Source: Opitutales bacterium
GTDB taxonomy: Bacteria; Verrucomicrobiota; Verrucomicrobiia; Opitutales; UBA953
Reading direction: 5' to 3'
DNA length: 64,000 nucleotides
NCBI GenBank assembly: GCA_017531845.1
Contig: JAFXKI010000003.1
Coordinates: 1-64,000, forward strand
Shown: positions 13,935 through 52,627 of the stretch, piece after piece
Position numbering within the stretch: position 1 is the stretch's first letter
Layout of the letters: the number at the start of each line of letters is the position of its first letter
Translations under genes and position numbers: made by a program
The notes under the pieces: generated by a model
What the model was told of the DNA's origin: nothing
The model's database searches: none
What the model saw: only the letters and a program-made list of their open reading frames with translations

Positions 13935-14576
13935 ATGTGCGAAGAAGACAATAAGAAAAACAACGCCGAATCCGCTCCCGTAGCGGCGCAGATTCAGAAA
14001 GAATTTCTCAAGCAACGGAAAATTTTTCTTTGGGGTGCAGTCGAAGATTCCAGCGCGCGCGACATTACGGAAAAGCTGCTTTACCTGGAAGCGACGGAGC
14101 CGGGAACGCCGATTACCTTCTACATCAATACGCCGGGCGGATCGATTACCGCCGGGATGGCGATTTATGATACGATTAAGCTCATTTCCTCACCGGTTAA
14201 AGTCGTGGTTACCGGCATGGCGGCTTCAATGGGCTCCATCCTCTTGAGCGCACCCGCGAAAGGAAACCGCTTTCTTTATCCGCACGCGCGTGTGATGATT
14301 CACCAACCGCTGATTATGGGACAATTCCAGGGACCGGCGGTTGACATCCATATTCAGGCGCAGGAAATGGAACGCACGCGGGACGAGCTAAACCGCATTC
14401 TTTCATCGGCTTCCGGGCAACCGCTTGAAAAAATCCGGACAGACACGGATCGAGACTTTTATTTGACTGCGGAAGAAGCCATCGCTTACGGGCTTGCCGA
14501 TGCGATTGTGTCTCCGGACGGCGCGACGCCGAACGCCACCAAAAGCAAGCTTCCGGCTTCGCGCAAAAAGAAATAA
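13935..14576 (+). CDS. clpP: ATP-dependent Clp protease proteolytic subunit
   Basis: This cytosolic serine protease forms a barrel with ClpX or ClpA. The catalytic Ser99 lies in GMAASMGS, His123 in ARVMIHQPL, and the Asp in TDRDFYLTAEEA. The PGGSITAGMAIYDTI block shapes the oxyanion region. The 213-residue chain has a longer, charged N-terminus and a basic C-terminal tail (SKLPASRKKK) beyond the standard fold. No clpX follows. Instead a rhomboid protease gene starts 9 bases downstream, so this is a proteolysis operon. A sigma-54-type promoter precedes it. Confidence 0.94.
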   Translation: MCEEDNKKNNAESAPVAAQIQKEFLKQRKIFLWGAVEDSSARDITEKLLYLEATEPGTPITFYINTPGGSITAGMAIYDTIKLISSPVKVVVTGMAASMGSILLSAPAKGNRFLYPHARVMIHQPLIMGQFQGPAVDIHIQAQEMERTRDELNRILSSASGQPLEKIRTDTDRDFYLTAEEAIAYGLADAIVSPDGATPNATKSKLPASRKKK

Positions 14577-14585
14577 ACTCCGCGC

Positions 14586-15287
14586 ATGCGCAGAATCCCT
14601 TCCATTCCCGAATTGCGTTCCCGCGTTCGTGATTTTTGGGCGCATTCCGTTACGAACAAAATCGTGGTGCTTTGCGTCGCGATTTTTGTCGCGCAATCCC
14701 TACACTGGTTTTTCGCGAACGCGTTTTCGCTGAACGCGGTATGGGTGCACGAGGGATTTTGGCTGAATTTTGTCAGTTACGGCTTTTTACACGGGGACTT
14801 TTGGCACCTTGCATTAAACATGCTCGCCCTTTACTTTGCCGGGAACGCCGTAGAACGCTACGATTCGGTACGCAATGCGCTGATTGCCTTTTTCGGAGGA
14901 GTGATTCTCGGCGGGATCTCGTGGTATGCCTGCGTGCTTGCCTTTGCCGTAGCGCCGCTTGAGGCAACCTTAGTCGGTGCCTCTGCGGGAATTGCCGCCC
15001 TTTTCGCTTATTTCTCCGTGCTCTATCGGGATTCAGAGATTCGGGCGATGATTTTCTTCGTGCTACCGGTAAAAATGCGCGCGTGGGTGATTTTCGCCGT
15101 GCTTGCCGCGCTCTCCTTGCTCGGTCTTGTTGCAGATGAATTGCCCGCACTGCGAAGCGGCTTGCAACAATCCGTTTCCATTGCGCATTCGGCTCACCTC
15201 GGCGGGATTCTTTTCGGCGCGATTTTCGCGTTCGCCTACGACCGCTTCCGGGGACGTTTCGGGAACGTTCGCTATTTTCATCGTTAA
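14586..15287 (+). CDS. Rhomboid-family intramembrane serine protease
   Basis: This polytopic membrane protein of 233 residues has the rhomboid catalytic pair: Ser in VGASAGIAALFAY and His in AHSAHLGGILFGAIFA. The family's HxxxN-type block appears as GDFWHLALNMLALYFAGNAVE. About six hydrophobic segments are visible. Rhomboids cut single-span substrates within the membrane. The substrate is unknown. It sits nine bases after clpP and 21 before a tail-specific protease gene, so three proteases of different compartments appear co-transcribed. Confidence 0.88.
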   Translation: MRRIPSIPELRSRVRDFWAHSVTNKIVVLCVAIFVAQSLHWFFANAFSLNAVWVHEGFWLNFVSYGFLHGDFWHLALNMLALYFAGNAVERYDSVRNALIAFFGGVILGGISWYACVLAFAVAPLEATLVGASAGIAALFAYFSVLYRDSEIRAMIFFVLPVKMRAWVIFAVLAALSLLGLVADELPALRSGLQQSVSIAHSAHLGGILFGAIFAFAYDRFRGRFGNVRYFHR

Positions 15288-15308
15288 AAAACTACTTCAA
15301 CATTTCTC

Positions 15309-17669
15309 ATGCTAATAAAGAAAAAAATCATCTTCGGATTATCTCTTGCCTGCTTTGCCGCCGGTGCTTTTGCCGTCGCGGGAACGCTTTCCGAAAGCAC
15401 GCCCGCCATTATTGCTCCGGAACAGGAAAACCTGCGCTACACCACGACGCAGGACATGAAAATCGAAACCTGCCTCACGGCGTTTTTCCTTGAAAGAGCG
15501 CATATTTCTCAGAAAAAAATTGCCGAGCTGGACATGGGAGAGCTTATCGAATCCGATTGCTCCTCACTGGATTCCACGCGCTCGATTTTCTTGCAAAGCG
15601 ATATCGAGGCGATGAAATCGCGCTTCGCTCCGACGTTGTCGGATCACCTTTCCCGGGGGAATCTTCACGCGGCATTCACCATTTACAATCTTTTTCTAAA
15701 GCGTCTCGACGAGCGCATCGCTGAAATTGAGCTTCGGTTAGAAAAACCGGAATCTTTCAACCTGAACCGGGAAGATTCGCTCAATCTCAACCGCAAAAAG
15801 GAGCAATGGCCCGCGGACGAAGCCGCCGCCGATGAACTTTGGGAAAAACGCCTCACCAGCGAAATTATCACGGAACTCCTCGGCGAGGAAAACGAGGAAA
15901 GCGCCGAAGACTCAGAAGACGTAGAAAATGAGCCGCAAGCCTCTCTCGACGAAGCGCACCCGACACCGGAGTCCGTCGCCGCCGCCTGCGAAAAATTGCG
16001 GGAACGCTATTCCAAATTACGCGATAATCTCAAACTTGAGCCCTGGGAAGTGGAAGAAATTTTCCTCAACGCCCTGACCACGCAATACGACCCGCACACG
16101 TCCTTTTTCTCCAAACAATCCATGGAGGAATTTGAGATTATGATGCGCAATTCACTTTGCGGAATCGGTGCCGTTTTGACAATGGAAGACGGCTACTGCA
16201 CGATTCGTGAAATCATGCCGGGATCGCCGGTGGAACGCTCGGGAAAACTTTCCGTCGGAGACCGTATCGTCGCCGTCAACGCCGAAGGGAAAAACGAATC
16301 GCTGACGGATGTCGTAGGCATGCGCCTCAATCGCATCGTCCGCATGTTGCGCGGAGAAAAAGGCGTTCCCGTAACCTTGCTCGTGGAATCCGGGAACGAT
16401 CATTCTCGCTCGATGATTACGCTGACGCGCGACGAAGTAAAACTGACGGAGCAACTCGCTTCGGCTCAAATTTTTGAAGTCCCGGAAGGCGATAACACCG
16501 TTCCCGTCGGTGTTATCAGTTTGCCCTCATTTTACGGAAAAGACCGCTCGGACAAAGCCTCGTTTTCAACGTCCGAAGACGTTAAAGAACTTTTGGGAAA
16601 ACTTAAAAAAGCCAAGGTAAAAGCTGTTGTTTTGGACTTGCGGCGCAACGGCGGCGGTTACCTGAACGAAGCCATCGATTTGCTGGAACTCTTCGTCGGA
16701 CCGGGCGTTCCCGCATTGCAAACACGCGGCTCCGGATCGCGCCCGAGCAAACTCGTAACCGGCGGCACATTCGGCATGGCGCGTAGTCTTTTTTCGGATA
16801 CACCGGAGTGGACGGGACCGGTGATCGTTCTTGTTTCCAAGCTGAGCGCATCGGCAAGCGAAATTGTCGCCGGCGCATTGCAGGATAATCGGCGAGCAAT
16901 TATCGTCGGAGATCCGCAAACACACGGTAAAGGCTCCGTTCAGGAAGTAATTCCTTTCAAGGCCTACGATTCGTCGCAAGAGGCGTCCATTAAACTCACG
17001 CGCAGTAAATGGTATGCACCTTCGGGCAAATCAATTCAGATTAAAGGCGTTGCTTCGGACGTTGTTACTCCGTCCGTTTACAGCGTGCTTCCCGTTGGCG
17101 AAGGAGATCTTGACCGCCCATTGCCGTGGGATTTGGTGCCGTCGGTTCTCAGCGACGAGATTCCCGAATGGCTAAGTGCGCCGGTCTCACCCGAGCTGAT
17201 TGAAATCCTCGCCGAGAACAGCCGTCGCCGCCAAGCCGAATTGCCGGAATTTCTGACGCACAACCGCAACATTGCTTGGCTGGACGAGCGCGAAAAAGAT
17301 AAGATGCTCCCGCTCAGTATAAATGAACGCTTGGCTCTGCGCGATAACGATAAGGCTTTCTACGACCTCGTTAAAAAAGAATACACCGACCTGAGCGAAG
17401 AAAACGGCTTTAAAAAAACGGAGGTCAAACTGGATTCCGCACTTGAGCAGGAAAAAGAATCCGAAGCAAACCACTCCAAATCGAAGAAAAAATCGCTTCT
17501 GAAGTCTAACTCAAATGCGCTTCCGGGAATCTCCGGCGAGGACGAGGAAGGCGAATGGCCCGACTACGATGTGCTCCTTCGCGAAGCCGTGCGCATTGCC
17601 GCAGATTGGGTCGAAATTCTCGAAAAAGAAAAAGCCGTGCAACTTTCCGCCGTCGAAGCAAAAAATTAA
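15309..17669 (+). CDS. Carboxy-terminal (tail-specific) processing protease, S41 family
   Basis: This exported protease of 786 residues has a signal-anchor-like start (MLIKKKIIFGLSLACFAAGA), an N-terminal helical region, and a PDZ domain at about residues 275-345 (GIGAVLTMEDGYCTIREI). The S41 core follows, with VVLDLRRNGGGYLNEAIDLL, then the catalytic Ser (about 515) in LSASASEIVAGAL and Lys (about 541) in THGKGSVQ. Length and a C-terminal extension of the Prc (Tsp) type match periplasmic Prc, which degrades proteins from their C-termini. An acidic linker (about 195-220) is unusually Glu-rich. It is the last gene of the clpP-rhomboid cluster, followed closely by the SDR gene. Confidence 0.93.
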   Translation: MLIKKKIIFGLSLACFAAGAFAVAGTLSESTPAIIAPEQENLRYTTTQDMKIETCLTAFFLERAHISQKKIAELDMGELIESDCSSLDSTRSIFLQSDIEAMKSRFAPTLSDHLSRGNLHAAFTIYNLFLKRLDERIAEIELRLEKPESFNLNREDSLNLNRKKEQWPADEAAADELWEKRLTSEIITELLGEENEESAEDSEDVENEPQASLDEAHPTPESVAAACEKLRERYSKLRDNLKLEPWEVEEIFLNALTTQYDPHTSFFSKQSMEEFEIMMRNSLCGIGAVLTMEDGYCTIREIMPGSPVERSGKLSVGDRIVAVNAEGKNESLTDVVGMRLNRIVRMLRGEKGVPVTLLVESGNDHSRSMITLTRDEVKLTEQLASAQIFEVPEGDNTVPVGVISLPSFYGKDRSDKASFSTSEDVKELLGKLKKAKVKAVVLDLRRNGGGYLNEAIDLLELFVGPGVPALQTRGSGSRPSKLVTGGTFGMARSLFSDTPEWTGPVIVLVSKLSASASEIVAGALQDNRRAIIVGDPQTHGKGSVQEVIPFKAYDSSQEASIKLTRSKWYAPSGKSIQIKGVASDVVTPSVYSVLPVGEGDLDRPLPWDLVPSVLSDEIPEWLSAPVSPELIEILAENSRRRQAELPEFLTHNRNIAWLDEREKDKMLPLSINERLALRDNDKAFYDLVKKEYTDLSEENGFKKTEVKLDSALEQEKESEANHSKSKKKSLLKSNSNALPGISGEDEEGEWPDYDVLLREAVRIAADWVEILEKEKAVQLSAVEAKN

Positions 17670-49765: not shown

Positions 49766-51181
49766 TTATCGGGCTCTGTAATATCCCGTTTTATCGTAAA
49801 TTGCCCAGAAATCAAAGGGATTTTCGAGAACCGGAAGTTCAACAAAGCGTCTGCCCTGAGCGTCTGTCTGTTCCGGCATAGGAGGCGTCGGCATCATCAT
49901 TCCGTTGTTTGGCTCTTTAGGCGGGTTTTCCAGAGAAATCACCCCGGTTTCCTCAATGCGCTCCGCAATATGATCCACCCACTTCAGCTCAACGGCTCGC
50001 TCTCCGTTTTCCTGCCAATCCCCGTCCGAATTATGCGCATACATTTGTCGGGTAAATTCTTCGAGCGTAAGCCCCATCTTTTTGGCAACAGGCTCACCGA
50101 AGCGCTTATACCAAAGTTCTCCCATTGCAACGCCCTCCCGAAGCATTGTAAGATTGCCCTGCACTCCGGTGGAAATTTGGTGGTGCAAGATACGCGAATT
50201 TGCGTAACAGAAAGAGCGTTCCGCAGTCGTTGTAATCACGGCTGCCATGGATGCGGCAAAACTTTTGACGACAACGTACACCGGTGCCGTGCAGCTCTGC
50301 ATCGCTTTTTGAATCTGATAGCCGGCGGCGACGCTTCCGCCCGGAGAGCTGTCAATTACGATAAAAATCGGATACTCCGAATTTTGATTGTTAAAGAAAT
50401 AAAGCTGCTCGCAAACCGTTTTGGCAGAGTCCTCCGTGATGGGACCGTTTAGCGGAACCCGGCGATCCGAAATATAGAGCGTGCCATCCACAAAAGGTTC
50501 TTTGAGATACTTAGGAGAAACGGCTGCTTTCGGTGCCAGGCGGGAAAGTTTTTCCTGCTTTTCCGCCATCGACATCACGTATTGCGTCCTCATGTTTTCG
50601 CCGTTCATTTCCAGCTGTTGTTCGCGCAGTGCCATTTCGAGCAAGCTAAGTTCTTTTTGCTTCGCGCGAAACGTTGCCGCCGAGCGGGAATTTTCCAAGG
50701 CGATGCGACGTTCTATTTCCGTGCGTTCATCTTCGAGACCGGCAATCTCTTCGGCAATTTTTGCAGAACGCTCCGCCCGCTCCGCATCCAAAACCATTTT
50801 CTCGAGCTTCATCGCCTGCATCGCCCTCTCGTTTTCCGAAGAAGCGAGCGCGAGGCGAGATTCTATCAGAGATTTTTCAAGGTGGATTTTGTTTGTTTCT
50901 TCAGAAAGTTTTTTTAGCTCCTTCTCTATTTCCTCTTTGGAAAGCATTTTCGGAGCGTTGGCGGGAACGACTTCAATCTCCTCGTCAACAACAACGAGCG
51001 TATCTGTTGCGGAAGTTTCCGAAACCTGCTGCAACTCGACTTCCTCTCCGGCGTGAACGCCGTCGCCCGCTTTGGCGGGAACGTCTGCCGTCGCAACCGG
51101 CGTTCCTGCGGCACAGCCGGCAAACATCAATGCCGCGAGCGACAAAGCGGAGCGAGTAAGGTATTTTTTTTCAAACAACAT
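49766..51181 (-). CDS. Exported lipoprotein with coiled coil and ClpP-like protease domain (copy 1)
   Basis: I use the ATG at 51181 (after GGAAAACGAC, and inside a longer frame to 51223). It begins MLFEKKYLTRSALSLAALMF, with a lipobox FAGC. Residues about 85-215 are a long charged coiled coil (RALQ-type heptads: EIEKELKKLSEETNKIHLEK). The C-terminal 250 residues align with ClpP: IVIDSSPGGSVAAGYQIQKA, Ser311 in KSFAASMAAVI, His334 in RILHHQIS and Asp in SDGDW. So the fold and triad of ClpP are present outside the cytoplasm with a stalk. No Clp ATPase can be there, so substrate delivery must differ. Paralogue of the gene 45 bases upstream. Confidence 0.8.
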   Translation of the reverse strand: MLFEKKYLTRSALSLAALMFAGCAAGTPVATADVPAKAGDGVHAGEEVELQQVSETSATDTLVVVDEEIEVVPANAPKMLSKEEIEKELKKLSEETNKIHLEKSLIESRLALASSENERAMQAMKLEKMVLDAERAERSAKIAEEIAGLEDERTEIERRIALENSRSAATFRAKQKELSLLEMALREQQLEMNGENMRTQYVMSMAEKQEKLSRLAPKAAVSPKYLKEPFVDGTLYISDRRVPLNGPITEDSAKTVCEQLYFFNNQNSEYPIFIVIDSSPGGSVAAGYQIQKAMQSCTAPVYVVVKSFAASMAAVITTTAERSFCYANSRILHHQISTGVQGNLTMLREGVAMGELWYKRFGEPVAKKMGLTLEEFTRQMYAHNSDGDWQENGERAVELKWVDHIAERIEETGVISLENPPKEPNNGMMMPTPPMPEQTDAQGRRFVELPVLENPFDFWAIYDKTGYYRAR

Positions 51182-51226
51182 TGTCGTTTTCCTTCTAAAT
51201 AAAATTTTAAAATTAAAGGGCAAAAA

Positions 51227-52627
51227 TTAACGGGCGGCAGTACGATAGAGATTGTTCGGATCGTAAATCATCCATACATCGCCCGCCGGGAGGGTCGGCA
51301 AGTCAAAATACGGACGCCCCTGTTCGTCAATTTTTTGCTGGCGAATAATCAGCGTTTGCATTTTGGGGCGTTTTGCCTCGGACTCCTTGCGCACGAAAGC
51401 GGTTTCGTCAATGGTATCGACGATATCCGTGATCCAGTTCCATTTTTTTGCGCCGTCGCCGAACTCTGTCCAATCGCCCTGGGAATTGTGTTTATACATT
51501 TCGGCGACGTATTCTTCGTAAGTCAGACCCATTTTAGCGGCAAGCTTGTCGTTGATATTACGCGTCCATTCCACCACCAAATCCAACTGTTCTGCCATTT
51601 GGCGAAGATTTCCCTGCGTTCCCGAGGAAGGCTGGTGTTGCATGATCACCGTGTCTTTGTAGCAGAAGGAGCGTTCTGCCGCCGTGGCAATCATCGCCGC
51701 CATGGATGCGGCATAACTTTTGACCACAACATAGACGGGAGCCTTGCTGCTTTCCATGGCTTTGATAATTTGGTAACCGGCGGAAACGCTTCCTCCCGGA
51801 GAGCTGTCAATCACGATGAAAATCGGATATTCCGTGTTCTGATTGTTGTAAAAATAAATGCGTTCCGTGACATAGTTTGCAAGCTCGGGCATAATTACAT
51901 CATTAAGCTCGATGCGGCGATCGGAAATGTAGAGTTTTCCGTCCGACAGCGGATCCTTAAGGTAATTTTCCGGAGCAAACGCGGCGGCGGGAGCGACGGT
52001 GCGAAGTTTTTCCGCCATTTGCACCTGTGCGATTTCACGATTGCGATGCGCGAGCGTCAAATCCTGCTTGGCTCGCTCGATTTTAAAATCGAGATCTGCC
52101 GCGCGCAGTGCGTTCCCGCGTTCCAAAATTGCCAAATCATCGCGTGCCTTTTCCAGAGAAAGCGCAGCGTCGAGTTTACGTTTTTCCGCTTCAATATCGG
52201 CAAATTTCGCGTTATTGCGAGCCACGCGCAACGCCGTTTCCGCCTCCATGCGGGCGCGCTCCGCTGCACGCGGTGCAAGTTGCTCCGAGAGTCGGGCTCG
52301 TGCGAGTGCCATTTCTGCATCAATACGAGCCTTTCTTGCAGAAAGCAGGCGAACTTCCATTTGCTTGCGCTGCTCCGGGGTCAATTCCGGAACCGGAGGA
52401 GGAACGGGAACCGGTTCTGCCATCTGCGCAGGTGCTACAGATTCTTTTACACCTTCGACGGGAACGCTTTTCGCCTCTGTGCTTCCGGCAATTTCCGCTT
52501 CTTCAACAACAACCACGGAGACTTTTTCCTTATCAGGATTCTCAGATTCGGCTATCGCTTGTCCGAACGCAAACGGAGCCAACGCCAACGCCGAGACGGC
52601 ACTCAGAAAAAACTTAAATGAGTTCAT
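51227..52627 (-). CDS. Exported protein with coiled coil and ClpP-like protease domain (copy 2)
   Basis: This 466-residue protein has a signal peptide (MNSFKFFLSAVSALALAPFA, cleaved near FGQA) with no lipobox. A Pro/Val/Glu-rich linker is followed by a coiled coil at about residues 80-215 (KARIDAEMALARARLSEQLA). The ClpP-like domain matches copy 1 closely: IVIDSSPGGSVSAGYQIIKA, Ser308 in KSYAASMAAMI, His331 in VIMQHQPS and Asp in SQGDW. The C-terminus shares a final YDPNNLYRTAAR, like YDKTGYYRAR of copy 1. The two lie in tandem with one lipidated and one apparently soluble form, suggesting hetero-oligomers in the periplasm. ClpP assigned by motif alignment, not by search. Confidence 0.8.
   Translation of the reverse strand: MNSFKFFLSAVSALALAPFAFGQAIAESENPDKEKVSVVVVEEAEIAGSTEAKSVPVEGVKESVAPAQMAEPVPVPPPVPELTPEQRKQMEVRLLSARKARIDAEMALARARLSEQLAPRAAERARMEAETALRVARNNAKFADIEAEKRKLDAALSLEKARDDLAILERGNALRAADLDFKIERAKQDLTLAHRNREIAQVQMAEKLRTVAPAAAFAPENYLKDPLSDGKLYISDRRIELNDVIMPELANYVTERIYFYNNQNTEYPIFIVIDSSPGGSVSAGYQIIKAMESSKAPVYVVVKSYAASMAAMIATAAERSFCYKDTVIMQHQPSSGTQGNLRQMAEQLDLVVEWTRNINDKLAAKMGLTYEEYVAEMYKHNSQGDWTEFGDGAKKWNWITDIVDTIDETAFVRKESEAKRPKMQTLIIRQQKIDEQGRPYFDLPTLPAGDVWMIYDPNNLYRTAAR

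Follow-up and report, generated by a model that had tools for sequence, protein, structure and literature searches.

The analyzed window is a 64,000-nucleotide stretch of the 1.69 Mb genome (G000) of an Opitutales bacterium, and within it two adjacent genes of the minus strand, to which all coordinates of the pair given below refer, encode paralogous proteins. The first gene (51230..52627) codes for the 466-aa protein P0002, composed of a Sec signal, a disordered Pro-rich linker, a long helix, a ClpP domain and a conserved C-terminal tail, and the second (49769..51181) codes for the 471-aa P0001, with a lipoprotein signal followed by a linker, a long helix, a ClpP domain and a tail. ORF calls placed both reading frames where the earlier note on this DNA had put them. 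P0001 starts 45 bp past the stop codon of P0002, and the two proteins are 42% identical over 386 columns. Since its orthologues begin there, the start codon of P0001 is most likely the ATG at 51181 and not the TTG at 51223. A promoter scan around the pair revealed no excess over shuffled sequences.

The N-terminal residues 1–22 of P0002 (52562..52627) form a predicted signal peptide of the Sec/SPase I type (ALALAPFAFG-Q), while residues 1–23 of P0001 (51113..51181) form a predicted lipoprotein signal, in which the lipobox F-A-G-C (MFAGC) was found to be real by pattern, with Cys23 (51113–51115) following the hydrophobic stretch. In both proteins a low-complexity linker (PVPVPPPVPE in P0002) lies between the signal and the helix. 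Export features, as well as single residues, were counted over 126 distinct members of the family, diverged down to ~30% identity. A strong hydrophobic N-terminal stretch is present in 123 of these proteins, across nine families, and a small-x-small motif behind it in 125. The same hydrophobicity score was reached by 1 of 38 cytosolic neighbour proteins read from the first start and by 14 of 38 if any Met, Val or Leu within the first 60 residues was counted as a start, so that conservation across the members outweighs the score of any one protein. Among the low scorers, L044 does carry a signal at its true start (MHPRPLLRALALAFLVAAPVLAQS), L195 is truncated at the end of its stretch, and the other is L192. 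The comparison of 123/126 members with 1/38 cytosolic controls supports the export of both proteins, predicted at first from the letters of the window.

A lipobox was detected in the second copy of six genomes (G000, G038, G053, G103, G082, and G667) and is absent from the second copy of G666, which belongs to the same genus as the window; most genomes of that genus retain it there. The pairing of a lipidated with a soluble form, as proposed by the earlier note, therefore stands for some genomes of this genus and falls as a general feature; restricted in this way, it cannot account for function in general, and a universal lipidated/soluble pairing was rejected.

The ClpP domains, residues 234–407 of P0002 (51407..51928) and 236–410 of P0001 (49952..50476), match the Pfam family PF00574 at 1.9e-23 (83.7 bits) and 2.9e-22 (79.9 bits), respectively, against a cut-off of 20.2, and searches of PDB sequences with the pair gave ClpP matches throughout. 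As the scores with the NCBIfam ClpP equivalog TIGR00493 (58.4 and 58.8 bits versus a cut-off of 308.6) and with all other ClpP equivalogs are far under the cut-offs, both proteins are, by sequence, ClpP-like proteins and not ClpP orthologues. Membership of other families of this fold was rejected, i.e., S49 (SppA, PF01343; 14.1 bits for P0002 and no match for P0001, cut-off 24.9), NfeD1b (PF25145; 20.7 and 16.1 bits, cut-off 40) and the SDH-type serine proteinases (PF01972; 30.3 and 19.4 bits, cut-off 31.3). Kinship with phage prohead proteases was also rejected, the viral matches being only remote ones to the ClpP domain (22–38% identity).

Each copy was modelled alone with AF2 (as a monomer, from 15-row alignments), and both models show the ClpP fold, with VIA Z values versus 6mx2 of 22.7 for P0002 and 24.3 for P0001. 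The P0001 model superposes on 5g1r with an rmsd of 1.4 Å over 167 residues (model 238–410 on chain 29–197). The handle helix and the GGS oxyanion region are retained in both proteins. Alignment to Ser97, His122, and Asp171 of E. coli ClpP identified as putative catalytic residues Ser308 (51704..51706), His331 (51635..51637), and Asp385 (51473..51475) of P0002, and Ser311 (50249..50251), His334 (50180..50182), and Asp388 (50018..50020) of P0001; the offsets along the P0001/5g1r superposition also bring Ser, His and Asp to the ClpP triad, which bears out the register claimed for them previously. Within the family the triad is kept at the Ser97 position in 124, at His122 in 124 and at Asp171 in 123 of the 126 members; in one single-copy member Asp is replaced by Asn.

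The surface by which ClpP docks to its ATPase has a different fate. In ClpP, strong conservation marks the pocket residues that correspond to Y62 and F82', mutation of these equivalents in Bacillus subtilis ClpP greatly reduces caseinolytic activity, and in the apo-form the cleft is covered by the C-terminus (PMC11005422). In all 126 members of the exported family (E. coli ClpP numbering) Tyr62 is replaced by V/I/M, Phe82 by A/S/T/G and Met92 by Lys (Lys303 of P0002, 51719..51721), the pocket position Leu48 is substituted, and the sensor Arg170 has become Gly or Ala; Leu114 is Tyr or Phe in 125 of them. In the same order, 17 cytosolic ClpPs have invariant Tyr62, Leu48, Leu114, and Arg170, with F/L at position 82 and V/I/L at position 92. 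Position 60, with Phe in the exported family and H/Y/Q/N in the cytosolic controls, is not informative. With the pocket residues replaced in 126/126 members and the triad conserved, the exported family is, as far as residues can tell, devoid of a surface for Clp ATPase docking while its active site is retained. This agrees with the previous suggestion that these proteins act independently of an AAA+ unfoldase, the hydrophobic pocket being kept in 17/17 cytosolic ClpPs. The retained PF00574 domain and handle helix would also suit cytosolic accessory subunits mixing with normal ClpP, their hydrophobic N-terminus being no export signal; however, nearly every member combines a hydrophobic start with a small-x-small cleavage motif, several have a lipobox, and the AAA+ docking pocket is lost in all of them, which makes this explanation extremely improbable.

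A further family trait with no counterpart in ClpP is the conserved aromatic C-terminal tail (family-wide motif D-x-W-W-I-Y-D-P-x-x-x-Y-R, found in 114/126 members). It is encoded at 51230..51334 in P0002 (D-x-W-x-I-Y-D-P ... Y-R) and at 49769..49873 in P0001 (PFDFWAIYDKTGYYRAR), where it was modelled at a block pLDDT of 76–80. At a guess, this tail might fill the remodelled ATPase pocket.

The segment preceding the ClpP domain is modelled by AF2 as a single continuous helix, comprising residues 84–215 of P0002 (51983..52378; block pLDDT mostly 88–95) and residues 82–215 of P0001 (50537..50938; block pLDDT mostly 84–90), so that confidence is mostly 84–95 over the two. Its ~132 residues, at 1.5 Å each, would extend to ~20 nm if straight; the width of the Gram-negative periplasm is usually quoted as close to ~20 nm. 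The helices of the pair contain ~40% charged residues and 11–22% Ala, and the median length of the longest Pro-free stretch in family members is 97 residues. The earlier note described this region as a coiled coil of 130 residues. The long helix is confidently predicted, but the 3.5-residue heptad periodicity did not exceed that of shuffled sequences in P0001, in P0002 or in the family profile, and no heptad signal was detected in any of 113 members, whereas the GCN4 zipper used as positive control was detected (p 0.001). A classical coiled coil was therefore rejected, and the stalk is better described as an extended helix rich in charged residues, which may stand by itself or pack in a ring and in which a coiled coil is not demonstrable. 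When the P0002 model is overlaid on ClpP, the helix end coincides with the N-terminal segment of the latter (model 196–200 onward on chain 2–4 onward), which tentatively suggests that the stalks would exit from the entrance side of ClpP; this geometry is tentative because pLDDT drops below 50 at residues 211–220 of P0002 and the superposition of P0001 begins later (218–238).

The pair is under strong purifying selection, with dN/dS versus the closest orthologue of 0.077 for P0002 and 0.047 for P0001. Omega of the helix is 0.034 in P0002 and 0.038 in P0001, and over the comparisons it ranges from 0.017 to 0.043 in the helix, from 0.018 to 0.037 in the ClpP domain and from 0.25 to 0.49 in the N-terminal linker. 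The helix thus matches the ClpP domain in its slow evolution, and the linker does not.

The distribution of this architecture in Verrucomicrobiota was surveyed with an HMM (A1) built from 22 members. It was found in 33 of 388 genomes sampled over the phylum (~9%) and in 34 of 286 sampled over the class, all at E < 1e-100. In the window's own family it occurs in 71 of 79 genomes, and in 35 of the 36 good ones. In the tree, a branch with 100% SH-aLRT support divides all the exported forms from the cytosolic ClpPs, i.e., the exported family is monophyletic. Within the window's family the genes form a tandem pair in four genera (g1, g2, g3, and g324), so that the pair noticed in this one genome proved to be conserved in its relatives, and occur as a single gene in g323; outside this family a single gene is found mostly. 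As two ordinary cytosolic ClpPs are also encoded in the genome of the window, the exported pair is not its housekeeping ClpP.

In two genomes one partner of the pair has no triad, namely the second copy of G082 (L040:8925-10322(-)) and the first copy of G664 (L189); in both, GGVA replaces ASMA, His and Asp are changed, and the partner is intact. Both triad-less copies are placed on very long branches of the tree. Catalysis is consequently not essential in every subunit, and the loss of the triad in one partner is compatible both with heteromers in which one subunit is structural and with paralogues under relaxed constraint.

These observations bear on whether the tandem partners form an obligate hetero-oligomer, with mixed or stacked rings resembling ClpP1P2, one subunit held at the membrane and the other soluble, and with an inactive structural partner in some lineages. 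The tandem arrangement with its 45-bp spacing, the strong purifying selection on both genes and the presence of the pair in almost every complete genome of four genera argue for it, the triad-less copies beside intact partners in G082 and G664 give a hint, and ClpP1P2 provides a precedent (PMC9753991). However, the single copy in g323 and in most genomes of other families means that one protein suffices and a homo-oligomer must work, and a lipid anchor is confined to one genus and lacking in G666. We regard an obligate hetero-oligomer as a serious possibility, with odds slightly below even. A mainly structural role, in which the stalked protein would be a scaffold or pseudoprotease that oligomerises through its ClpP-fold head, is unlikely: the constraint on the helix (omega 0.017–0.043), equal to that on the ClpP domain, and the loss of the triad in two tandem partners are consistent with it, but each triad residue persists in ~98% of the 126 members, which is hard to explain without catalysis.

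Several known systems share features with the pair. Compared with ClpP itself (PF00574, MEROPS S14), it has the same fold, an in-register Ser-His-Asp triad, the handle helix and the GGS oxyanion region, but it is predicted to be exported, carries a helix of ~130 residues in place of the N-terminal axial loop, is devoid of the docking residues Y62, F82, M92, and L48 and of the sensor R170, and has the additional conserved C-terminal tail. ClpP1P2 hetero-tetradecamers, which are established complexes (PMC9753991), bring together two ClpP paralogues, as the tandem pair might; they are cytosolic and ATPase-driven, unlike the exported proteins, for which a heteromer is hypothetical. NfeD1b, a ClpP-class protease of the membrane that is paired with SPFH/stomatin proteins, is also encoded in the genome of the window (C9:243585). 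Its protease domain likewise has the ClpP fold and lies outside the cytosol, and its genes adjoin that of a long-helix SPFH partner (PMC2636767). The tandem pair differs from NfeD1b in having neither an NfeD domain nor transmembrane helices after the signal, in the ClpP-like Ser-His-Asp triad, and in that no SPFH neighbour was found.

SppA, with a fold of the ClpP superfamily, faces the periplasm and is ATP-independent, as proposed for the pair, and its catalytic residues are Ser-Lys. The combination of the ClpP fold with export, together with the peptide substrates near the membrane that may be expected by analogy, could point to a signal-peptide peptidase doubling for or replacing SppA. This is very unlikely, since the pair scores under the S49 cut-off and has Ser-His-Asp in place of Ser-Lys, and SppA itself (PF01343) is present in the genome of the window and throughout its family (36/36 good genomes), for which reason replacement of SppA was rejected. 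Given that SppA and NfeD1b already act outside the cytosol, and occur in this same genome, the exported branch is not categorically new; it is nearer to true ClpP than either of them and has its own stalk. The description of the architecture as unexplored is accordingly fair for the exact arrangement and too broad for ClpP-fold proteases outside the cytosol. In open-access literature we found nothing on periplasmic, exported or secreted ClpP, nor on periplasmic ClpP-like proteins in Verrucomicrobia, which is weak evidence of novelty.

Judged from its residues, this is a real, conserved, exported ClpP branch without the means of unfoldase docking. In the reading that we prefer, with a probability of about 0.62, the pair represents a peptidase derived from ClpP that is exported, needs no ATPase and is borne on a helical stalk. 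Each protein would be secreted by Sec, the second copy usually being lipid-anchored in the window's genus. The ClpP domain probably still forms rings with the catalytic sites inside; as the AF2 models are of monomers, ring formation is something that we infer, and the loss of Arg170, the ring-ring sensor, makes a heptamer or another assembly possible. The charged helix of ~20 nm would take the place of the entry gate of ClpP and of its N-terminal axial loops, joined by the disordered linker to the signal, and each ring would bear a bundle of stalks that may tether it to, or space it from, the membrane or cell wall. As neither an AAA+ docking pocket nor ATP is available outside the cytosol, the proteins would be able to act only on peptides or on unfolded, mislocalised or damaged exported proteins that diffuse or thread into the chamber, and the outcome would be periplasmic peptide disposal or quality control. 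In a bolder version, the proteins would build a self-compartmentalising ClpP barrel that works without ATP outside the cytosol; a crown of ~20 nm helices would span the periplasm in place of the entry gate, the tandem paralogues would assemble into lipid-anchored mixed rings, and the tail would plug the ATPase pocket. This we consider rather doubtful. ClpP, normally an intracellular enzyme, is the textbook example of proteolysis dependent on an unfoldase driven by ATP. The exported branch may be viewed as nature's own experiment on the capabilities of a ClpP chamber deprived of ATP, and it bears on how large compartmental proteases could operate in the periplasm. With representatives in ~9% of the sampled genomes of the phylum, single-copy in many species, the family is testable.

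As regards the neighbourhood, no gene common to the pair was found across the genera of the window's family, and thus no conserved substrate or partner there. Within the window's genus only, a DEAD-box helicase and TsaD are shared downstream of the pair, and both look unrelated. The pair gave no plasmid match, and a plasmid-borne or mobile origin was rejected. In at least 11 loci of families f29 and f33 (e.g., L108:10155-11006(-), L084:10119-11006(-), and L113:7004-7864(+)), a gene of an uncharacterised membrane protein family (A4) is localized just upstream, on the same strand, of a single-copy exported ClpP. These proteins have an N-terminal SPFAGC motif, a transmembrane segment, ~200 residues outside and often a second transmembrane segment, and yielded no Pfam match above the cut-off. 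Distant A4 members are widespread in the class without a ClpP-like gene. A4 was rejected as an obligate partner, since members of the window's family and of others have the ClpP-like gene but no A4, and several genomes have A4 alone; nor do the two genes always adjoin.

Two other loci with ClpP-like genes may be mentioned. A contig filed as viral encodes a 183-aa ClpP-fold protein with a likely signal peptide (L133:1021-1569), which represents a different exported ClpP-like type. Elsewhere in the window (13935–17666), neighbouring genes for a second, cytosolic ClpP, a rhomboid protease and a tail-specific protease (S41, TSP_NTD) form a cluster of three protease genes.
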